Origin: a bacterium
GTDB lineage: Bacteria; Planctomycetota; J058; JAJDCP01
Reading direction: 5' to 3'
NCBI GenBank assembly: GCA_030428695.1
Contig: JAUIEM010000163.1
Location: 1 to 20,208 of the forward strand
DNA: 20,208 bases
The notes under the pieces: model-generated
The model's database searches: none
Told to the model about the DNA's origin: nothing
Seen by the model: only the letters and a program-made list of their open reading frames with translations
In this document: positions 1,778 to 12,098 of the stretch, in pieces
Position numbering within the stretch: position 1 is the stretch's first letter
How the letters are laid out: every line of letters begins with the position of its first letter
Position numbers and translations under genes: made by a program

Positions 1778-4700
1778 TCACTTTCCCTGGCCGTCCTTCT
1801 TCTCGTAGGCGTCGCGCACACAGCGGAAGCCGACATCGGTCCAGTAGTCGTTCGCGCTGCGCGCGTCGCGGATTGTGGTCTCAAAGGCCTGGACGTAGTA
1901 GTCGGGCAGCATGAACGAACCGCCACGCACGACGCGGAGCACCTCCGGAGCGTTGTAGCCCTTCTCGTCGTTGGTCGAGCCTTCGTAGGCGCGGTAGTAG
2001 GCCAGACCGTCTGGGCCCTCGTAGCCCTGGGTCCACTCGAACACGTTGCCGGCCATGTTGACCGCGCCGTAGCGGCTCGCGCCCTCTCGGCCGGAGCTGA
2101 CGGGGAAGACCACCTCGGCGCCGTCGAAGCCGGGCTTGCAGTTGCACTTGCTCTCCTGAAAGGTGTTGCCCCAGGGGAAGATGTACTTGTCCGAGGGATT
2201 CTTGCAGAGCGGACCCCAGGCGGCGGCCTTCTCCCACTCCTGCTCGGTCGGGACCCGCTTGCCGCACCAGTTGGCGTAGGCGACGGCATCCCAGTACCGG
2301 ACACCGGTCACCGGATCGGTCGGCTTCCCGCCCGGGCGGTCGATGCTCTCCCAGTTCGCCGGGAGGTGCTGGCCAGGGGTCGGATCGTTGGCGATGTCCG
2401 AGTACCGCGCGGGATCGTTGATCGTCGCCCGGAGGAAGGCCTGGTACTCGAGGATGCTGACCTCTTCCTTGTCGATGAAGTAGGCGTCGGTCTCTTGCGG
2501 GTGCTGCGGGTGGGCGTCGAGCCAGCGGTTCTGGTCGTCGGTCCCCATCGGGAAGGTGCCCGCGTTGACGAACACCATCGAGGTCGTCTCCTCGTGCAGC
2601 AGCGCGAAGGAGGCGTTCTCCTCCTGCAGGTCGACCGCGGCCTCGTACTTGGTGAAGTTCGCCGCCTCATCGGAGCCGAGCATCGCGTCGAGCACGCTCC
2701 GGCAGAGCAGGTAGTGCTGGTCGTTGAAGTGTTTGAGCGCGAGGTTGTACTGCTCTGTCGCGGCCTTGTCCGACTCGAGCTCGAGCTCGGCCAGCCGGTC
2801 TTCCAGGGCGTCGGTCGTCCCGGCCGGCCAGTCCTCGTTGTCTTCGAGCTTCAGCAGCTCCTGCTTGGCCGCGGCGGTCTGGTTCCGCTCGACCAGGCTC
2901 TCGACCTCGGCGAGGATCTCACTGATCACGGCCTCGCGCATCGCCGTGATGTCGCGCTCGACGCCCCCGCGCAAGCTGTCAGCCTTCTGCGCGAAGAGCT
3001 CGGCATCGGAGGGTACGTTGCGTGCGAACCGCTGCAGCTCGAGGGAAAAGGTGATGGCGCTGCCGAGATCGAAGTCGCCGCTCTCGGTGTCGTGGCGGTT
3101 CTTCAGGTCCCGGTAGAGGTCACGCGCGTTCCGGAAGGCAGAGGAGTTGAGGTCTTCATCTGCGATCTTCATCGCGAGCAGCTCATTCGCACGCTTGTGC
3201 GCCGGGGTGTCCTTGTACGACTCGGCGTCGACGAAGCCCTGCAGGTGCTCGATGGCCTCGTCGAGGAAGCCCTCTTTCTGCTCGGCGACCCGCGCCCGTC
3301 GGTTGATCTCGGTGTATTGGGTACTCGCGACCTCATGGAGCTGCTGCACCACGCTGTCGTAGTACTCGGAGGCCCCGAGCACCTTCTCTCCGGTGTCGAC
3401 GTTCAACCCGTGGTCGCCCAGCGCGACCAGTTGCTCGGCCAACCCGATCTGTTCGCGGATCTCGTTGGCGAGCGCCTGGTTTTTGTCGTCGTACTCCGAC
3501 GGTTCCTGACGCTCGGCCTTGACCTCGACAAGGAGCTGCTCCGCGTCATTGCGCATCAGGGACACGGTGTTGTTGTGGATGGAGGCCGCGAGGTTCTCGA
3601 GCGCGCGCTCGGCGGCCCGGTCGCGCTCTTCCTCCTTGCGTTTGACCTCATTGAGCGCGGCCTGAAGCTGCTCGAGGCGGCGCGTCCGCACCTTCTCGTT
3701 CTCCGACTGGGCCAGGCTCGTGTCCCCGGTCGGCCGGTATTGGACGAGCAGCTCTTCGAAGGCCGGGATCACATCGGCGAACTGGTTCGCCTCGATGTTC
3801 TCCTTGGTGGAGCTCCGGGTCGCGGCGAGCGCCTCGCCGATCTCCTTGTCGAGCGCGATCGCGGCGTCTTCGCGGCGCTGCTGCGCTTCCTGGGCGAGGC
3901 GTTTGTCCTCGATCTCCTGCTGGCGCGCCTGGTAGTCGACGTACATGTTGCCGCCGACCATGGCACCGAGGGCCAGCACCGCCACCGCGATCAGCGAGGC
4001 GACGATCCACACCTTCTTGCCGCCGGCCTCGTCGTAGACCTCGTCGACCCGGCGGCGCTTCGCGACCTTCTTGTTCTCGCGCAGGCGCTGGAGGTCCTTC
4101 TGGATCTCCTCGATCGTGTGGTAGCGGTACTTGGCCTTCTTGGCCATCATGTTCGCGACCAGGTTCGACATGCCCTCGGGCACCTCGTCGCACACCTCGT
4201 GGACCATCGGCGGCACCGTCTTGAGGTGCTGCAGCATGATCGTCATCTGGGTGTCGCCGGCGAACGGCGTCTGGCCGGTCAGCATGAAGTAGACGCTGAC
4301 ACCGAGCGAGTAGATGTCCGAGCGGTGGTCGACCTCGAGGCCCTTGCACTGCTCCGGCGACATGTAGTGCGGCGTACCGAGGATGAAGCCCGCCCGGGTG
4401 ACCTCGGACTGGGCGTCGATCTCGCGCGCCAGACCGAAGTCGGCGATCTTGATCGCGCCGGACTCCATCGACACCATCACGTTGTCCGGCTTGATGTCGC
4501 GGTGGACGATGCCCTTGTCGTGGGCGGCCTTCAAGCCCTTGAGGGTCTCCTCGAGGATCGCGGTGACCTCGCGGGTGTCGAGCTTGCCCTCGTTGCGGAT
4601 CATGTCGCGGATCGAGGTTCCCGCGACGTACTCCATCACGATGTAGTTCAGCTCGCCGCCGACGTCGTAGTCGAGCACCTTGACGACGTTGGGGTGGTCG

Positions 4701-7081
4701 ATCGACCCGGCCGTCTCGGCCTCGCGCTTGAAGCGCCCCATCTCGTCTTCGGTGACTTCCATCGACAGGACCTTGATGGCGACGGCCTCTTTGTCCGACA
4801 GGCGCGTCGCCTTGTAGACGGCACCCATACCGCCCTGGCCCAGCTTGCTGATGATCTTGTACTGCTCGCCGATCTGCTTCTGGATCTCGGCGATCTTCTC
4901 TTTGCCCTCTTCGCGCTTGATGCGCTCGAGCGCCTTGCACACGTCCTTGGCCGACTGGAAGCGGTCTTCCGGCCGCTTCGCCATCATCTTGTAGACGACG
5001 CTGACGACGCTGCCCGGGATGTCCGGGTTGTACTCGCGCGGGTTCAGGGGATCCTGGTCGAGATGCTTCTGCATGATCTCGAGCGCAGAATCGCCGATGA
5101 ACGGCATCTTCCCGGTGACCAGCGCGTAGAAGGTCGCACCGAGCGAGTAGATGTCCGAGCGGCTGTCGACCTTCTCGCCGGCGCACTGCTCCGGCGACAT
5201 GTAGGCGGGCGTACCGAGGATCTGGCCGACCTTGGTCAGCTCCTGCATCTCGGAGCCGCCGCGGGCGAGACCGAAGTCCGTGATCTTCACGTCCTTGGTC
5301 TTGTCGACCAGCATCAGGTTCTCGGGCTTGATGTCGCGGTGGACGATGTTGCGCGCGTGCGCCTCGGCCAGGCCTTCGGCGGCATCGGCGATGATCGACA
5401 CCGCCTTCTCGATCGGGAAGGGACCCTTCTCCTTGAGATACTCGTCGAGGCCCTTGCCCTTGACGTACTCCATCTCGATGAAGTGGTAGCCCTTCTCGTG
5501 GCCGACGTTGTGGACCGCGACGATCGCCTTGTGGTTCAGCTCGGCCGCCGAGCGCGCCTCACGGATGAAGCGCTGGATCAGCTGCTGGTTCGAGGCGAGG
5601 TGCGGCGAGATGACCTTGATCGCGACATCGCGCTTCAGGCCGAGGTGACGGGCCTTGAACACCGCGCCCATACCGCCCTGGCCGAGCAGCTTGCCGATCT
5701 GGCAGCCGCCGATGACCTCGCCGATCAGCGGGTGGTTCTTCTTCGAGCGGCTGCGCTTCCCCGACTGCGAGCCGGAGCCGGAACCCGAGCCCGCGCCCGC
5801 CTGCGAGCCGGAGCCCGAGCCGGTGCGACTGCGCCGACGCCGCACACCGCTGGCCGGGGTCTTCGCCTGGCGGTGGGCGAGGTGGTCGCCGGAGCTGACA
5901 TCCCCGAAGTCCATGAAGGTCTGGCGCAGGACGCCCGAGCCGGAGCCGGACATGTTGCCGAAGCCGCTGCCGCTGTCGGAGCCCGGATGGGTCCCGCTGT
6001 CGACGAAGGTGCGCATCGAGTCGGAGGACTGCGACTCGCTGCCCGCCTCCATGTCGATGAACGTCTGGGCCGAGTCGTCGAAGTCGACGTCGGTCGGCAC
6101 GTCGGGGTAGTCACCCTCGGTGGGCGGCACCGCGAGGCCGTTGTCGTCGACCTCCATGAACGTCGGCTGGGACTCGAAGTCTTCGTGCGAGAGCTCGGGA
6201 GACGGGCCGAAGGAGGGATAATCCTCGGTGCCCGCCGGCGTCTCGATGAAGGTCTGCGCCATCTGGAAGTCGCCGGAGTCGCCGAAGCCGGCGGTCTCGC
6301 TGGAGACGTTTCCGCCGCCGACCTCGGTGCGCGCGGCCTGGAACTCCTGCGCGGTCGGGTAGCGGCGCTCGAGGCCGGTCTTGTGCTTCTTCTTGCCGCT
6401 GACACCCGGGTCGGTCTTCGCCTCGCGCTCGTCGAGGTCGGGCACGACCATGTCCTTGGCCGTGCGGCGCCGCTTCGGCGGGGGCAGGGTGAAGGCCGCG
6501 GTCGCCGTCGCGTCGAGCTCTTTGACCTCGTCCTGGTTCGCGTAGCCGCGCTCGATCAGCAGGTTCGACAGCGACTGCGTCGGGTCGATGCGCTTGAGGT
6601 TCTCGACCTCTTTGAGCTGCTTGAAGCTGATCACGCCGGACTTGACCAGGCCGAGCGCCCGGGTCGTCTCCTTGACGCGGGCCTTCTTGACCTTCTGCGT
6701 CTTGTCGACGAGCGCCTGCAGGTCTTCCTCGGTGATGAAGCCCTTCTCGATCAGCACCTCGTGGACGTTCCGCTCACCGTTCGACAGCCGCGCGACCTTG
6801 TCGGCCTCGTTGAGCTGCTTGAAGGTGATCTTGCCCGCCGAGACCAGCTGGACCGGGCGGATCTTCGCGAACGGGTTCGAGGCCGTCTGCTTGCGCACGA
6901 GCAGGCACGAGTCGAGCTGCTCGGATTTCGCGTAGCCGCGCGTGACCGCCGCCGTGTAGAGGTCGTTTTCCTCTCCGGCCAGCACGGCCTTCTCGCATTC
7001 GTTCAGTTGTCGGAAGGTCAGGACGCCGTCCTTCAGAAGGCGCGCTGTCGACAGCTTCTTCTTGCGCTTCGTCCTGCTCAT
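1778..7081 (-). CDS. Transmembrane Ser/Thr protein kinase with two tandem kinase domains and a C-terminal FGE-sulfatase-like domain
   Basis: 1767 aa; ATG at 7081 preceded by GGAG. Residues 15-186 carry three repeats of about 42 residues (15-56, 79-121, 145-186) with the pattern G-[VKI]-[LI]-[TS]-F-[RK]-Q-L and a later [RK]-G-[YF]; they resemble the N-terminal modules of GspE/MshE ATPases. Residues 200-450 are low-complexity, Gly/Ser-rich, with five T-F-[IMV]-[DE] motifs. Kinase 1 spans about 455-722: GQGGMG 467-472, Lys489, HRD 581-583, DFG 602-604. Kinase 2 spans about 741-1001: GQGGMG 748-753, Lys770, HRD 860-862, DFG 881-883. Both keep every catalytic residue (Hanks/PknB type). A single membrane segment lies at about 1024-1048, then a coiled-coil/helical stalk to about 1490, then an FGE-like domain (about 1501-1758) with RVPTEQEWEKAA, NMAGNVFEW and RVVRGGSF. 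Topology implies cytoplasmic kinases and an outside sensor. Domain calls are firm; the signal and targets are unknown. Confidence 0.95.
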   Translation of the reverse strand: MSRTKRKKKLSTARLLKDGVLTFRQLNECEKAVLAGEENDLYTAAVTRGYAKSEQLDSCLLVRKQTASNPFAKIRPVQLVSAGKITFKQLNEADKVARLSNGERNVHEVLIEKGFITEEDLQALVDKTQKVKKARVKETTRALGLVKSGVISFKQLKEVENLKRIDPTQSLSNLLIERGYANQDEVKELDATATAAFTLPPPKRRRTAKDMVVPDLDEREAKTDPGVSGKKKHKTGLERRYPTAQEFQAARTEVGGGNVSSETAGFGDSGDFQMAQTFIETPAGTEDYPSFGPSPELSHEDFESQPTFMEVDDNGLAVPPTEGDYPDVPTDVDFDDSAQTFIDMEAGSESQSSDSMRTFVDSGTHPGSDSGSGFGNMSGSGSGVLRQTFMDFGDVSSGDHLAHRQAKTPASGVRRRRSRTGSGSGSQAGAGSGSGSGSQSGKRSRSKKNHPLIGEVIGGCQIGKLLGQGGMGAVFKARHLGLKRDVAIKVISPHLASNQQLIQRFIREARSAAELNHKAIVAVHNVGHEKGYHFIEMEYVKGKGLDEYLKEKGPFPIEKAVSIIADAAEGLAEAHARNIVHRDIKPENLMLVDKTKDVKITDFGLARGGSEMQELTKVGQILGTPAYMSPEQCAGEKVDSRSDIYSLGATFYALVTGKMPFIGDSALEIMQKHLDQDPLNPREYNPDIPGSVVSVVYKMMAKRPEDRFQSAKDVCKALERIKREEGKEKIAEIQKQIGEQYKIISKLGQGGMGAVYKATRLSDKEAVAIKVLSMEVTEDEMGRFKREAETAGSIDHPNVVKVLDYDVGGELNYIVMEYVAGTSIRDMIRNEGKLDTREVTAILEETLKGLKAAHDKGIVHRDIKPDNVMVSMESGAIKIADFGLAREIDAQSEVTRAGFILGTPHYMSPEQCKGLEVDHRSDIYSLGVSVYFMLTGQTPFAGDTQMTIMLQHLKTVPPMVHEVCDEVPEGMSNLVANMMAKKAKYRYHTIEEIQKDLQRLRENKKVAKRRRVDEVYDEAGGKKVWIVASLIAVAVLALGAMVGGNMYVDYQARQQEIEDKRLAQEAQQRREDAAIALDKEIGEALAATRSSTKENIEANQFADVIPAFEELLVQYRPTGDTSLAQSENEKVRTRRLEQLQAALNEVKRKEEERDRAAERALENLAASIHNNTVSLMRNDAEQLLVEVKAERQEPSEYDDKNQALANEIREQIGLAEQLVALGDHGLNVDTGEKVLGASEYYDSVVQQLHEVASTQYTEINRRARVAEQKEGFLDEAIEHLQGFVDAESYKDTPAHKRANELLAMKIADEDLNSSAFRNARDLYRDLKNRHDTESGDFDLGSAITFSLELQRFARNVPSDAELFAQKADSLRGGVERDITAMREAVISEILAEVESLVERNQTAAAKQELLKLEDNEDWPAGTTDALEDRLAELELESDKAATEQYNLALKHFNDQHYLLCRSVLDAMLGSDEAANFTKYEAAVDLQEENASFALLHEETTSMVFVNAGTFPMGTDDQNRWLDAHPQHPQETDAYFIDKEEVSILEYQAFLRATINDPARYSDIANDPTPGQHLPANWESIDRPGGKPTDPVTGVRYWDAVAYANWCGKRVPTEQEWEKAAAWGPLCKNPSDKYIFPWGNTFQESKCNCKPGFDGAEVVFPVSSGREGASRYGAVNMAGNVFEWTQGYEGPDGLAYYRAYEGSTNDEKGYNAPEVLRVVRGGSFMLPDYYVQAFETTIRDARSANDYWTDVGFRCVRDAYEKKDGQGK

Positions 7082-7559: not shown

Positions 7560-9491
7560 ATGCTACGCGCCCCCTTCTCCGCTGGTCCGTTGACCCCGTC
7601 ACAACTGGAGACGCTGACCGGCCTGCGCAAGGACCTGGCCGGCGACTGCATCCGCTCGACCACCCTCGCCGGTTGCGGCCATCCGGGCGGGTCTATGTCC
7701 ACCCTCGACGCCCTGTTGACCATCTACACGGGCGCCCGGCATTTTCCCGAAAAACCGCTGCATCCCGACCGCGACCGGGTGATCGTCAGCCACGGCCACA
7801 TCACCCCCGGCGTGTACTCGACCCTCGCCGCCTGGGGATACTTCGAGCGCGCGGAGTTCATGCGCTCCTTCCGCTACCCCGGCACCGACTTCGGCGGCCA
7901 CGTCGAGTTCGGCGTGCCCGGCGTCGAGTGGAACACCGGCAACCTCGGCCAGGGCCTCAGCGCCGGTTGTGGATCGGCCCTCGCCCTGCGCATGGCGGGC
8001 AAGGAGGCGCGGGTCTTCGTGCTGATGGGGGACGGTGAGCAGCAAAAAGGTCAAATCTCCGAGGCCCGCCGCTTCGCGGTCAAGTTCGGCCTGAGCAATC
8101 TGATCGCCTTCATCGACTACAACAAGCTGCAGATCGGCGGGGACATCGAGCGGATCATGCCCCAGGACATCGCGGCGGAATGGCGGGCCGGCGGCTGGCG
8201 GGTCGTCGAGCTCGACGGGCACGACCTGCCCGGTCTGCGCGCGGCCTTCGCGGAGGCCTACCTCGAGCCGGGCGACAGGCCGACCGTGCTGATCGGCAGG
8301 ACCGTGATGGGCCGCGGCGTGCCCTTTATCGAAAACAAGGCGAAGTACCACGGCTCGGCCCTGTCCGTCGACCAGGCCCGGGAAGCCCTCGCCGCCCTCG
8401 GCGTCGAAGACGACCTCGACGGGTTGCTCGCCGACCGCGCGGCCTTCCGCCCCGAAGGCCTGCCCGAGCACCACCGCGAGATCGAGCTGCCAGAGCTCGA
8501 CGCCGGCACCCCGCGCGACTACGGGGCCGACGTCAAGACCGACTGCCGCTCGGCCTACGGCAACGCCCTCGCCGACCTCGCGGAGGCGAACAACCGGGCC
8601 GGGGCGACCCGCGTCGTCGGCCTGACCTGCGACCTGCAGGGCTCGGTGAAGATGGGGGCCCTCGAGAAGGTCTGCCCCGAGGCCTTCATCGAGTGCGGGA
8701 TCCAGGAACATCACGCCGCGACCCTGGCCGGGCGCCTGTCGGTCGAGGGCATCGTGCCCTTCTTCTCGACCTTCGGCGTGTTCGCGATGGCCGAGGCCTA
8801 CAACCAGCAGCGCCTCAACGACCTCAACGACACCAACCTGAAGATCGCCACCACCCACTGCGGGCTCGACGTCGGCGAGGACGGCCAGACCCACCAGGCG
8901 ATCGACTTCCTCGCCCTCGGCCACGGCCCCTACCACCTGCGGATCTTCGTGCCCGCCGACCCGAACCAGACCGACCGGATCATCCGCTACGCGGCCTGCC
9001 ACCGCGGCAACATGCTGATCCCGATGGGTCGCAGCAAGCTGCCGGTGATCTGCGACGAACAGGGCGCCCCCTTCTTCGCCGGCGACTACCGCTTCGAGCC
9101 GGGCAAGGCCGACCTGCTGCGCGGCGGCGAGGACGTGACGGTCGTCACCTTCGGCGACGTCGCCTGGCGCGCGGTCGAGGCGGCCGACCGGCTGCGCGGC
9201 GAGGTCTCGGTGCGGGTGCTCAGCTGCGCCTCGGTGCGCCCCCTCGACACCGCCAGCCTGGTCGCGGCCGCCCGCGAGACGCGCGGGATGATCGTCTACG
9301 AGGACCACAACCGCGACTGCGGCCTCGGCGTGCAGGTCGCGACCGCCCTGGTCGAGGCCGGCGTCGCGACGAAGTTCAAGCGCATGGGCACGCACCGCTA
9401 CGGCACCTCGGGCAAGCCCGACCCGCTGCTCGCCGAGCAGGGGCTCGGCGTCGATGACCTCGTCGGCGCCTGCCGCGAGCTGGCCGGATGA
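7560..9491 (+). CDS. Transketolase (single-chain, thiamine diphosphate-dependent)
   Basis: 643 aa, close to the usual transketolase length of about 660. ATG at 7560 is preferred because GGAGG lies about 11 nt upstream and a promoter lies just before it; a longer in-frame extension to 7452 would run across the promoter. Residues about 15-270 form the ThDP pyrophosphate-binding domain: an early His in CGHPGGS (39-45), SHGH (77-80), and the cofactor signature GDG (157-159) followed by IDYNK (Asn188). Residues about 325-500 form the pyrimidine-binding domain, with GIQEHH (380-385) holding the catalytic Glu383 and GEDGQTHQ further on; the remainder is the C-terminal transketolase domain. It would move two-carbon ketol units in the non-oxidative pentose phosphate or Calvin pathways. 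The start overlaps no gene; the stop overlaps the next start (ATGA). Substrate preference cannot be read from sequence. Confidence 0.88.
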   Translation: MLRAPFSAGPLTPSQLETLTGLRKDLAGDCIRSTTLAGCGHPGGSMSTLDALLTIYTGARHFPEKPLHPDRDRVIVSHGHITPGVYSTLAAWGYFERAEFMRSFRYPGTDFGGHVEFGVPGVEWNTGNLGQGLSAGCGSALALRMAGKEARVFVLMGDGEQQKGQISEARRFAVKFGLSNLIAFIDYNKLQIGGDIERIMPQDIAAEWRAGGWRVVELDGHDLPGLRAAFAEAYLEPGDRPTVLIGRTVMGRGVPFIENKAKYHGSALSVDQAREALAALGVEDDLDGLLADRAAFRPEGLPEHHREIELPELDAGTPRDYGADVKTDCRSAYGNALADLAEANNRAGATRVVGLTCDLQGSVKMGALEKVCPEAFIECGIQEHHAATLAGRLSVEGIVPFFSTFGVFAMAEAYNQQRLNDLNDTNLKIATTHCGLDVGEDGQTHQAIDFLALGHGPYHLRIFVPADPNQTDRIIRYAACHRGNMLIPMGRSKLPVICDEQGAPFFAGDYRFEPGKADLLRGGEDVTVVTFGDVAWRAVEAADRLRGEVSVRVLSCASVRPLDTASLVAAARETRGMIVYEDHNRDCGLGVQVATALVEAGVATKFKRMGTHRYGTSGKPDPLLAEQGLGVDDLVGACRELAG

Positions 9492-10243
9492 GCACCCTCG
9501 CCGGCAAGATCGCGCTCGTCACCGGCGGCGGCACCGGCATCGGGCGGGGCATCGCCGCGGCCTTCGCCGAGGCGGGGGCGACCGTCGTGATCACCAGCCG
9601 CCGGGCCGAGGTGCTCGCCGAGGCCTGCGCCGCGCTCGGTCCCTCCGTCCGCGCCGAGGCCGCCGATGTCTCGGAGGAGGCGGCGGTGGAAGCCCTCGCT
9701 GCGGCGGTCGTCGAGCGCCACGGCGGGCTCGACATCCTGGTCAACAACGCCGGGGTGGTGTGCGCCGCGCCGGTCTGGGAGACCAGCTGCGACGACTGGG
9801 ACCGGATGTTCGCGGTCAACGTGCGCGGGCCCTTCCTCCTGTGTCGGGCCTTCGCCGGGAGCCTGAAGGCTCGGCGCGGGGCGATCCTCAACATCTCCTC
9901 GACCCTCGGCAGCGCGCCGATTCCGCAGCTCTCTGCCTACAGCGCCTCGAAGGCCGCGCTCGACAACCTGACCCGCAGCCTGGCCCTCGAGCTCGCGCCC
10001 TTTGGCGTGCGGGCGAACGCGATCAGCCCGGCCGTCGTCGACACGCCGATCCACCGCCAGCGCTTCGCCCCGGGCGAGGTCGAGTCGGCCCTCGCCGGCA
10101 TGGGCGCGGCCCACCCCCTCGGCCGCGTCGGCCAGCCCGCCGACATCGCGGCGGCGGCCCTCTACCTCTGCTCGCCGCAGGCGTCCTGGGTGACCGGGGT
10201 GGTGCTGCCGGTCGACGGGGGGATGCTGATCAAGGCGGAGTAG
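9488..10243 (+). CDS. Short-chain dehydrogenase/reductase (SDR, classical type)
   Basis: 251 aa, a typical classical SDR length. The Rossmann cofactor motif TGGGTGIG (12-19), the NNAG motif (86-89), the catalytic Ser138 and the YxxxK pair Tyr151/Lys155 are all in place, and the C-terminus has the usual PVDGG near its end. It resembles FabG/glucose-dehydrogenase-like NAD(P)H oxidoreductases. The basic Ser-Arg-Arg after the second beta strand (about 37-39) hints at NADP(H). ATG at 9488 overlaps the transketolase stop as ATGA, so the two are translationally coupled; a shared sugar substrate is plausible but inferred. FabG itself cannot be excluded, but no other fatty acid synthesis gene is near. 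Confidence 0.88.
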   Translation: MSTLAGKIALVTGGGTGIGRGIAAAFAEAGATVVITSRRAEVLAEACAALGPSVRAEAADVSEEAAVEALAAAVVERHGGLDILVNNAGVVCAAPVWETSCDDWDRMFAVNVRGPFLLCRAFAGSLKARRGAILNISSTLGSAPIPQLSAYSASKAALDNLTRSLALELAPFGVRANAISPAVVDTPIHRQRFAPGEVESALAGMGAAHPLGRVGQPADIAAAALYLCSPQASWVTGVVLPVDGGMLIKAE

Positions 10244-10384: not shown

Positions 10385-10400
10385 TGGCACAGGCTGTGCT
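10385..10400 (+). promoter_or_regulatory. Sigma-54-like -24/-12 promoter (also a perfect palindrome) upstream of the micro-gene array
   Basis: TGGCACAGGCTGTGCT matches the sigma-54 consensus TGGCAC-N5-TTGCW at the -24 GG and -12 GC with the required 10-nt spacing between them; only the first T of the -12 box and a flanking G differ. The same bases include GCACAG-G-CTGTGC (10387-10399), a perfect inverted repeat that could be a repressor site instead. Transcription would start near 10411, about 53 nt before the first micro-gene. No upstream enhancer site was recognised. Confidence 0.45.
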
Positions 10401-10453
10401 CTCGTCGTCCCTCAGAACGAGACCGAACGACGCGGCGCTCCTGCTGCCGATGA

Positions 10454-10459
10454 GGAGGA
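10454..10459 (+). promoter_or_regulatory. Strong ribosome binding site of the first micro-gene
   Basis: GAGGAGGATCCC precedes the ATG at 10464 with AGGAGG about 5 nt upstream, an excellent Shine-Dalgarno. It lies inside a five-codon frame from ATG at 10450 (Met-Arg-Arg-Ile-Pro) whose TGA overlaps the 10464 start as ATGA, the same overlap used later in the array; this mini-frame may be incidental. Confidence 0.6.
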
Positions 10460-10463
10460 TCCC

Positions 10464-10538
10464 ATGAAGACCCGCACCCACACCCGCTCCGGCGGCAAGA
10501 AGATGAACCGCACCGAGACGCAGGAGGCCCCGCGATGA
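10464..10538 (+). CDS. Micro-gene 1 of 4: 24-aa Arg/Thr-rich peptide
   Basis: 24 codons, ATG at 10464 after a strong AGGAGG. The product starts MKTRTHTRSGGKKMNR and ends ETQEAPR; it is basic at the front, rich in Arg and Thr, with no Cys, signal peptide or membrane segment. It is nearly identical to copy 4 and clearly related to copies 2 and 3. The codons for Gln-Glu-Ala (CAGGAGGCC) supply AGGAGG 7 nt before the next start, and the final CGA plus TGA creates the ATGA overlap. I recall, but cannot verify here, short bacterial peptides with a similar K-x-K-T-x-x-K-A-G-G followed by N-H-N-[QE]-T pattern. Function unknown; a peptide precursor or signal is possible. Confidence 0.7.
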   Translation: MKTRTHTRSGGKKMNRTETQEAPR

Positions 10539-10609
10539 AGATCCGCACACGCACACGCTCCGGCTCCCACAAGATGAACCGCAACGAGATCCTGGAGGAC
10601 GCGCGATGA
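10535..10609 (+). CDS. Micro-gene 2 of 4: 24-aa Arg/Thr-rich peptide, the most divergent copy
   Basis: 24 codons, beginning MKIRTRTRSGSHKMNR and ending EILEDAR. Its ATG (10535) overlaps the stop of copy 1 by four bases. It keeps the family frame MK[TI]RT[HR]TRSG[GS] and the Asn-Arg-x-Glu core, but differs from copy 1 at ten positions. Despite these changes, the length, the TGGAGG located 7 nt before the next ATG and the terminal Arg-stop are unchanged, which argues that it is still translated. Expressed as part of the coupled array. Confidence 0.68.
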   Translation: MKIRTRTRSGSHKMNRNEILEDAR

Positions 10610-10680
10610 AAACCCGCACCCACACCCGCTCCGGCGGTCGCATCCTGAACCGCACCGAGACGCAGGAGCCCGCTCGATGA
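10606..10680 (+). CDS. Micro-gene 3 of 4: 24-aa Arg/Thr-rich peptide
   Basis: 24 codons, beginning MKTRTHTRSGGRILNR and ending ETQEPAR. The start at 10606 overlaps the copy 2 stop (ATGA). It differs from copy 1 in the middle (Arg-Ile-Leu for Lys-Lys-Met) and in the order of the last Pro and Ala. AGGAG lies 8 nt before the start of copy 4. The conserved ends and variable centre resemble a family with a conserved leader-like part and a changeable segment, which is an inference from four copies only. Confidence 0.68.
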   Translation: MKTRTHTRSGGRILNRTETQEPAR

Positions 10681-10760
10681 AGATCCGCACCCACACCCGC
10701 TCCGGCGGCAAGAAGATGAACCGCACCGAGACGCAGGAGGCCCCGCGCAGCGACCGTTAG
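10677..10760 (+). CDS. Micro-gene 4 of 4: 27-aa Arg/Thr-rich peptide, array end
   Basis: 27 codons, beginning MKIRTHTRSGGKKMNR and ending ETQEAPRSDR. Through residue 24 it differs from copy 1 only at residue 3 (Ile for Thr). The Shine-Dalgarno that would serve a fifth gene (CAGGAGG) is still there, but the following GCGATGA has become GCGCAGCG, so reading goes on three codons to TAG at 10758-10760. That stop overlaps the stop of the convergent thioesterase gene (TAA, 10759-10757, minus strand), leaving no room for a terminator between them. Confidence 0.68.
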   Translation: MKIRTHTRSGGKKMNRTETQEAPRSDR

Positions 10761-11197
10761 CGGAACTCCAACGGCGGCCGCGCCGAGACCTCGAGCCTGG
10801 CCCGCAACAGCTCCGGGACCGGCAGGATCTCGAGCTTGCCGTTCGGACGGCCCCGGCACTGCGCGATGGTCATCTTCAGCCGCGCGGTCTCCTGGCCGCC
10901 GCAGGTGAACAGCGTCGAGATCTCGAGGGTGCGGCGGCTGAGCTTGCTGACCCACTGCTGGATGTCGAGCAGGTCGTGGAAGGCGGCGGGCTTGCGGAAC
11001 TCGCTCTGGACCGCGAGCCGCGGGAAGCCGACGAAGGCGCCGTCCGGCTCGCGCACGAAGGGCACCTGGCCGAGCTCGACGAAGAAGGCGTGCTCGGCCT
11101 CCTCGGCGTAGCGGGCGTACATCGTGAAGTGCAGCATGCCCGCGGTGTCGGTGTCGGCGAACTCGACGCGGCGCTGGCTGAAGAACTCGCTGGGCAT
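10757..11197 (-). CDS. Hotdog-fold acyl-CoA thioesterase (YbgC/4-hydroxybenzoyl-CoA thioesterase type)
   Basis: 146 aa, the normal single-domain hotdog length. The ATG at 11197 has GGGAGG about 10 nt upstream and starts right at the conserved first strand. Residues 11-27 give the family motif VEFADTDTAGMLHFTMY, with Asp17 at the catalytic Asp position and a following Arg-Tyr on the long helix; the LGQVPF and QSEFRKPAAFHD stretches match strand 2-3 of YbgC-like enzymes. It would hydrolyse acyl-CoA or acyl-ACP thioesters in the cytoplasm; the acyl group cannot be told. It lies 82 nt downstream of the prepilin-like gene on the same strand and converges on the micro-gene array. Confidence 0.85.
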   Translation of the reverse strand: MPSEFFSQRRVEFADTDTAGMLHFTMYARYAEEAEHAFFVELGQVPFVREPDGAFVGFPRLAVQSEFRKPAAFHDLLDIQQWVSKLSRRTLEISTLFTCGGQETARLKMTIAQCRGRPNGKLEILPVPELLRARLEVSARPPLEFR

Positions 11198-11279
11198 CCC
11201 GCCCCCTCCCGGCTGAAGCTGCGCCCATTCTGGCGCTCGGCGCCCGGTGCGCAAGGGGGGAGGCCTGCAGCCGGCGAGC

Positions 11280-12098
11280 CTAGTTGTTGAACGGCGGGCC
11301 GTTGTAGACCGCCTCGCCCTTCCCGTCGAGCTCGACCGGCACGAGGTTCGAGATCCAGTCGAGCGAGCTGTCCGGGCTGCCGTCGGGGTTCTGGGGCAGG
11401 GGCCCGAGGGGAACCTCGTCCGGGGCGGCCGGCGGCGCCGTGTAGTTCCAGCCCGTGCCGCCGCCATCGCTGAAGTTGTTGCTCATCGCGCCGTCGAGGC
11501 CCGCGCCCTCCTGGCCTCCGCCGCCGCCCGCGAACAGCTCGCCGAGCAGGTTGCCGTCGCTGACGTTGCCGCCGAGGCCGGCCGCATCGAGCAGGTCGTA
11601 GACGTTGACGAGCAGCGGGAAGCGGCCCTGGCTGACGTAGGGGTCGGTCACGGTGCTGCCCTCGCCGAAGCAGAGCGCCTTCAGGCCGTTGCGGTTCAGC
11701 ACCGCGGCGAAACCGAACTCGTTGTAGCGGACGATGTCGATGCCGAGCTGCAGCTCTTCGAACAGCCGGGTCTGGAAGCGGCGGGTCAACAGCAGCGGTA
11801 CGCCGTTGACCAGCGGGCCCTGCTTGACCGCGGCGGGCTCGGCGGCGAGCTCGGGCGCGCGGCCGAGGGCGCCGGCGTAGCGCCAGTCGATCAGCGGCAC
11901 GGGGGCGGCGACCGAGTCCTGGAAGACCTTCGCGTAGATCATGTTCAGCTCGACCTGCAGCTTCTTCTGGCGGTCGATCAGCCAGGCGTCCTGGGCATCC
12001 TCGGTGGTTTGATCGAAGCTTATGAAGATCGTCACCGACAGGATCGCGACCAGGATCACGGCGAGCATCAACTCGATCAACGTCACGGCGCGCATCAT
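11280..12098 (-). CDS. Prepilin-like protein (type IV pilin/pseudopilin N-terminus)
   Basis: 272 aa, ATG at 12098 behind GGAGG (a second ATG follows directly). The N-terminus MMRAVTLIELMLAVILVAIL is a class III signal: short basic leader, cleavage expected before Val5, Glu at mature position 5, then one hydrophobic helix (about 5-28). The residue before the cut is Ala where Gly is usual. Mature residues 30-60 continue as an amphipathic helix. The globular part (about 65-270) is not recognised and has a Gly-rich loop near 190-205 and a Pro/Asn-rich, Asp-rich tail. It would be processed by a prepilin peptidase and placed in a type IV pilus or type II secretion pseudopilus. No other pilus gene is in view. 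Confidence 0.75.
   Translation of the reverse strand: MMRAVTLIELMLAVILVAILSVTIFISFDQTTEDAQDAWLIDRQKKLQVELNMIYAKVFQDSVAAPVPLIDWRYAGALGRAPELAAEPAAVKQGPLVNGVPLLLTRRFQTRLFEELQLGIDIVRYNEFGFAAVLNRNGLKALCFGEGSTVTDPYVSQGRFPLLVNVYDLLDAAGLGGNVSDGNLLGELFAGGGGGQEGAGLDGAMSNNFSDGGGTGWNYTAPPAAPDEVPLGPLPQNPDGSPDSSLDWISNLVPVELDGKGEAVYNGPPFNN

Follow-up and report, generated by a model that had tools for sequence, protein, structure and literature searches.

Four ATGA-coupled micro-genes in a planctomycete, possibly encoding leader-plus-core peptide precursors

Introduction

Are four very short open reading frames (ORFs), each overlapping the next, real genes, and if so, what are their products? The question is raised by the bacterial contig JAUIEM010000163.1 (20,208 nucleotides; this whole stretch is referred to as the window), whose forward strand carries, at 10464–10760, four ORFs of 24, 24, 24, and 27 amino acids. 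The stop codons of micro-genes 1–3 overlap the start codon of the following gene as ATGA. The place and the lengths agree with the original prediction, which was made from the letters alone. We regard it as an even call that these ORFs form a self-contained unit of leader-plus-core precursors for peptide export, at the edge of a family of short repeat peptides.

Results

Coding features of the array

The array has a period of 71 bp. Micro-gene 1 (10464–10538, +) encodes MKTRTHTRSGG-KKMNRTETQEAPR (24 residues), micro-gene 2 (10535–10609, +) MKIRTRTRSGS-HKMNRNEILEDAR (24 residues), micro-gene 3 (10606–10680, +) MKTRTHTRSGG-RILNRTETQEPAR (24 residues), and micro-gene 4 (10677–10760, +) MKIRTHTRSGG-KKMNRTETQEAPRSDR (27 residues), each being assigned from the ORF, codon changes, and third-position G+C. 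The alignment of the four peptides has 24 shared columns, of which 13 are invariant. Relative to the first copy, the two-unit copies show 77% and 83% identity, and units 1 and 4 differ by a single base over codons 1–23 (69 bases). Shine-Dalgarno sequences precede all four starts on the same strand: AGGAGG (10453–10458), AGGAGG (10522–10527), GGAGG (10594–10598), and GGAG (10665–10668), at −11, −13, −12, and −12, respectively. The last three sit inside the preceding micro-gene, so that the conserved 3′ end also supplies the following gene with its ribosome-binding site and the kept peptide end is partly a kept ribosome-binding site.

The codon-position composition is gene-like. The third-position G+C of units 1–4 is 0.96, 0.88, 0.83, and 0.96, compared to 0.46–0.62 at positions one and two, giving contrasts of 0.48, 0.46, 0.28, and 0.50 in the proposed frames. 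The corresponding values for seven genes of the window are 0.38 ± 0.10 in frame (186 windows) and −0.19 ± 0.22 off frame (372 windows), and none of the 372 off-frame windows reached 0.28. Letter shuffles attained contrasts as high as those of units 1–4 in 3, 66, 3315, and 1 per 100000, respectively. Among 163 overlapping intergenic windows, none reached 0.46, and 1.8% reached 0.26, the level of unit 3. The coding signal of unit 3 by itself is weak, and the four copies are not independent as coding evidence.

The changes between the copies are distributed unevenly along the peptide. Comparison of units 2 and 3 with unit 4 gave four synonymous and three replacing changes in codons 1–11 but zero and 11 in codons 12–23 (Fisher p 0.011, with the codon 11/12 border chosen with the family leader in mind); a mutation-path count places about two synonymous steps in the core. 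Together with the codon-position G+C and the ribosome-binding sites, this pattern supports the proposal of translated micro-genes; it is very probable that the four ORFs are genuine genes built as leader plus core.

A family of peptides with a similar front

The original prediction mentioned, without confirmation, short bacterial peptides of a K-x-K-T-x-x-K-A-G-G / N-H-N-[QE]-T type. Such peptides do exist: a search with a two-unit consensus gave 666 of 892 candidate proteins at E ≤ 1. The 120 proteins listed of these 666 have no precomputed Pfam domain, and all but one are hypothetical or nameless. They mostly consist of one to three 22-residue units of the form [ML]-K-[VI]-K-T-N-V-K-A-G-G-x3-N-H-N-[QE]-T-x2-R. 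A real N-H-N type repeat, MRKIKTGVRAGG...NHNVKVKTGVRAGG, is present in G551. A unit profile was built from 165 units of exactly 22 residues, with the window excluded; a looser pattern gave 216 units in the same 120 of 666 proteins. The consensus had no match in plasmids and none in phages, and its 12 stretches in viral contigs were not confirmed. Within the viral collection, the leader pattern is matched exactly only by an 18-residue ORF, MKAKTNIKAGRKPNKIYP (L222:6024–6080), which lies on a phage-like contig between genes that appear by eye to be holin-like and ParB/terminase-like.

Two further arrangements were found. The planctomycete G111 encodes six polyproteins whose 17-residue units include VRSTVKAGGMDPNHAAV and VRSTIRSGGWNNHAAI. 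All six KAGG...NHAA polyproteins are on one contig (L281–L283, G111:C100:50.8–86.8 kb), with an exporter about 2 kb off, and lie among large genes on the opposite strand that look kinase-like by eye. Myxococcota carry tandem micro-gene arrays with a similar leader. In L275 (G511:C10:248000–266000), L257 (G533:C7), and L255 (G509:C29), these are spaced genes of 18–34 residues starting with M[KQ]IKTKVRGGPRGCGGG, each with its own ribosome-binding site, and a C39 exporter and a protein termed p590 (see below) are encoded nearby. Two sample peptides of these arrays had no match in NCBIfam, and strings of the array peptides were not found in the literature searched. Strings of the family as a whole were not found in relevant use in the literature searched, part of it judged by title. 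In some longer precursors the motif stands in the middle of the sequence, for example ...GKLNIKTAVRAGVASGFDCIYFARNAPFAPEHL; these occur at L260:12295, L261:11220, L262:4579, L265:1246, and L266:12149, near exporters of the same C39 subfamily.

The C39 exporter and p590

The family co-occurs with a subfamily of ATP-binding cassette (ABC) exporters that carry a C39 peptidase. The exporter was present in 9 of 10 peptide-positive genomes against 31 of 185 others in a first set, and in 3 of 6 against 4 of 288 in a second set. All 16 positives were kept in these 2 × 2 counts, including three chance-like ones (G564, G123, and G188) and a doubtful one (G185); the A3 query used at E ≤ 0.05 misses RGG-type peptides, and G509, G533, G456, G496, and G460 were scored peptide-negative despite having RGG-type peptide genes. 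When 11 positives are taken (nine of the ten of the first set, without G564, and two of the six of the second), the exporter is present in all 11. In the draft genome of G403, the peptide genes are on six contigs, and the exporter was found on only one of these; distance alone therefore does not refute a link between a precursor and the exporter.

Genomes carrying the peptides often also encode p590, an unnamed protein of about 590 residues (P0121 and relatives; L170:8890–10656) for which at least 327 relatives were found at E ≤ 1e-10; the 120 of these that were listed carry no Pfam domain. Its modelled N-terminus may resemble RiPP recognition elements (RREs; PqqD-like fold), RiPPs being ribosomally synthesized and post-translationally modified peptides. 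The remainder is helical with many invariant residues. The plasmid search gave just one partial match to p590 (26%).

Comparison with known precursors

Three reports describe C39 peptidases that cut at GG, GA, or GS and clusters with many precursors (PMC10885120, PMC8939145, and PMC13039773), such as the LahT cluster, in which as many as nine precursors are cleaved by a PCAT, a peptidase-containing C39 ABC exporter (PMC10885120). The window peptides resemble PCAT-cut RiPP precursors in being a set of paralogues whose leaders are kept while their cores differ and in the small residue pair that ends the leader. This pair is G10-G11 in units 1, 3, and 4 and G10-S11 in unit 2, in agreement with a double-glycine site, whereas a cut after position 10 would leave a non-canonical SG pair. 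They differ in the far shorter leader (10–11 residues), the ATGA overlap of the genes, and the absence of an exporter near the array.

Double-glycine precursors of microviridins and graspetides with C39 exporters (class II/III) are likewise described (PMC13039773 and PMC8939145). The microviridin-type precursor of G009 has KVKTNVKAG between PFFARFLE and the core, and a C39 exporter is in its cluster. The window peptides have neither PFFARFL nor the T-x-K-Y-P-S-D core and gave no match to NF033738 or PF12559, and no relative of MvdC/D was found in the window.

A sigma-54-like site upstream

The consensus of sigma-54 promoters is TGGCAC-N5-TTGCW. With up to one mismatch allowed, its sole match on either strand of the window is at 10385–10400 (+; one mismatch), 79 bp before the first ATG; shuffled sequences had a mean of 0.20 sites, and 19 of 100 had one. 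A similar site precedes three family members of G403. The scans covered the window and 13 loci, and then 39 sources. In the latter, a gene of G403 (L166) and one of G422 were left out for too short an upstream sequence, L274 duplicates L168, and the precursors covered were those without an internal motif. Only G403 and the window had the site among the genes scanned, and sigma-54 control as a general trait of the family was rejected. The array itself may be under sigma-54 control.

Relation of the array to the family

The window peptides follow the leader register of the family from the start codon, namely K2, [KR]4, T5, [KR]8, [AGS]9, and G10, the residues kept in the window being K2, R4, T5, R8, S9, G10, N15, and E18. 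This register is shared with the M[KQ]IKTKVRGGPRGCGGG micro-gene arrays; N15, E18, and T19 are shared in addition with the MKIKTNVKAGG...NHN[QE]T repeat proteins, and tandem organization is common to all three. Against the unit profile, the four peptides align without gaps in the same register, and 0, 0, 0, and 2 per 200000 shuffles with M1 fixed scored as high. Against the 17-residue units of G111, the register is again the same, with 17, 121, 309, and 15 per 100000 free-offset shuffles as high, at scores well below those of members.

Several observations weigh against membership and export. The window peptides score 20.9–24.1 bits with the family profile, below every member (average 53.7, lowest 40.3). 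Position 7 is T in all four units, whereas all 165 family units have V, I, A, L, or M there. The NH pair is absent, N-R-[TN]-E-[TI] standing where the repeat subgroups have N-H-N-[QE]-T or N-H-A, so that R16 replaces H16; the family units were chosen with H required, and its invariance is thus built in. Position 9 is S instead of the A of the repeat family, and the window genes overlap, whereas the relatives are spaced genes or polyproteins. C39 substrates have leaders with hydrophobic residues at −4, −7, and −12 (PMC10885120), but the −4 residue in the window is T or R for either cut, and the leader is under 12 residues long. Finally, no C39 exporter and no other partner gene was found in the 20-kb window. 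The relation thus stands as a same-register match beyond shuffles, at scores and with residues outside the known members. We consider it plausible rather than proven, with chances close to equal, that the array is an outlying member of the K-x-[KR]-T-x-x-[KR]-[AGS]-G family.

The original prediction proposed a consensus search for tandem homologues as a check. Our protein and genome searches gave no close relative and no homologous locus. When a two-unit profile was run against 5.77 billion proteins, none of the 91 candidates scored reached E ≤ 10. The isopropylmalate/isocitrate dehydrogenase (IPMDH) of the window is 70% identical to that of the planctomycete G189. Among 199 planctomycetes, 12 have an enzyme 61–70% identical to that of the window (next best 51%), and eight of the 12 belong to the class of G189; the window therefore comes from a planctomycete in or near this class. 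Transketolase was rejected as a lineage marker, since it gave mixed phyla and IPMDH worked better. The window units had no convincing match in six genomes (best E 0.6), in 392 Planctomycetota genomes (0.011), or in 12 genomes of the G189 class (0.027), and the exporter was not found at a convincing score in these 12 class-mates. Only chance-like stretches and no micro-gene array were seen at 13 loci inspected from the 6- and 392-genome searches and at five from the 392-genome and class-mate searches. In viral contigs, 71 stretches fitted the pattern of the four units, and in genome contigs 47 did; none of them was confirmed. Comparison of 13 window proteins with 80 transketolase loci gave only kinase-like or IPMDH-like matches (eight loci), and the surroundings of 10 IPMDH loci, out to about 1.5 kb, showed no window protein besides the query. 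Of the other 74 transketolase loci, 50 had their genomes searched with the A3 peptide query, which found nothing (0/50), an empty result that is uninformative without a positive.

The lack of homologues, the deviations at positions 7 and 9 and at the NH pair, the scores under all members, and the missing exporter could also be explained if the micro-genes were real but unrelated to the family, encoding a lineage-specific duplicated basic peptide that acts in the cell, for example on RNA, ribosomes, or a protein, with a likeness arising by chance in a peptide rich in R, T, S, and G. We regard this explanation as less probable than membership. Composition-keeping shuffles reproduce the same-register match at only about 1e-5 to 3e-3 per unit, depending on the profile, the leader/core pattern is that of a precursor, and the sigma-54-like site recurs before the three G403 members.

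Could the repeat be non-coding?

The original prediction took the four open frames as a sign of coding. All four are open, but the argument is weaker than claimed: with a period of 71 bp and ATGA at each border, TGA falls in frame automatically, so that open frames alone are weak evidence. In neutral simulations, units 2 and 3 stayed open in 67% of cases and acquired a stop in 33%, and the ATGA chain was rejected as coding proof by itself. The longest ATGA-linked chain of ORFs in the window comprises three ORFs and was matched in one of 200 shuffled windows, a rough guide only, as the shuffling kept dinucleotides roughly and broke the repeat. The replacements total 14 against a neutral mean of 17.1 (P 0.08), not clearly below neutral, so that the case is one of a kept leader and not of a kept peptide. 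The register, the simulations, and this count would suit a 71-bp minisatellite lying between convergent genes and open by accident. However, the gene-like third-position G+C in the proposed frames, the ribosome-binding site at −11 to −13 of each start, and the constrained leader make such a non-coding origin improbable.

Neighbouring genes

The array is flanked upstream by a short-chain dehydrogenase (SDR) gene (9488–10243, +; PF13561, E 8.8e-66) and downstream by a convergent gene for a 4HBT-type thioesterase (10757–11197, −; start picked by hand; PF13279, E 5e-7 on 10757–11293, −), whose end overlaps the array by 4 bases. Neither is thought to be part of the micro-gene system. The four peptides had no match in Pfam or NCBIfam. 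At 1778–7081 (−), the window encodes a 1767-residue protein in which two protein-kinase-like regions and a C-terminal part resembling formylglycine-generating/sulfatase-modifying enzymes were recognized by eye.

Small coupled ORFs with start-stop overlaps serve elsewhere as regulatory leaders, and the array might similarly be translated to control a downstream gene by attenuation or coupling. This is very improbable here, as the next recognized gene runs towards the array, the nearest recognized one further on in the same orientation begins only at 12022, no Rfam family reached the gathering score in the window, and the scan found no terminator-like site on the + strand. A role as antitoxin-like peptides, or as another kind of small partner to a toxin encoded nearby, to which size and charge alone would point, is the least probable explanation, the neighbours being the SDR and the thioesterase.

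Discussion

Among the functions that had been suggested, peptide precursors are best supported, and signals, antitoxin-like peptides, and RNA-binding peptides received no support. As leader-plus-core precursors, the four translationally coupled micro-genes would act as a self-contained transcription unit, each producing a precursor with the kept leader MK[TI]RT[HR]TRSG(G/S) and a variable tail of 13–16 residues. The family front, [MQ]K-x-[KR]-[TS]-x-x-[KR]-[AGS]-G, may be the handle for the C39-peptidase ABC exporter, which would cut at or beside the [AGS]-G pair. The same front may also serve a maturation enzyme where one is present: ATP-grasp ligases of the MvdC/MvdD kind in the microviridin-type cluster, or alternatively p590 with its possible RRE. 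A single message would then yield a small group of related core peptides, set free by cutting and export and perhaps toxic or signalling.

Tentatively, and at somewhat less than even confidence, we propose that Planctomycetota and Myxococcota share an unnamed class of minimal precursors whose leader is ten residues long, [MQ]K-x-[KR]-T-x-x-[KR]-[AGS]-G. Its members, many of them of only 14–35 residues, would be arranged as tandem micro-gene arrays or polyproteins and be served by one C39-exporter subfamily and, for some, by p590 as a new maturase bearing an RRE. The window would be its most compact form, with four cores in successive frames on ATGA-coupled genes under sigma-54 control.

Genes of 14–27 codons tend to escape annotation, and genome mining that starts from a known maturase or from a model of the precursor would overlook a peptide class of this kind. 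A ten-residue handle for both export and maturation, if that is what the leader is, would be unusually short. The p590 protein would be a candidate for a new RiPP enzyme.
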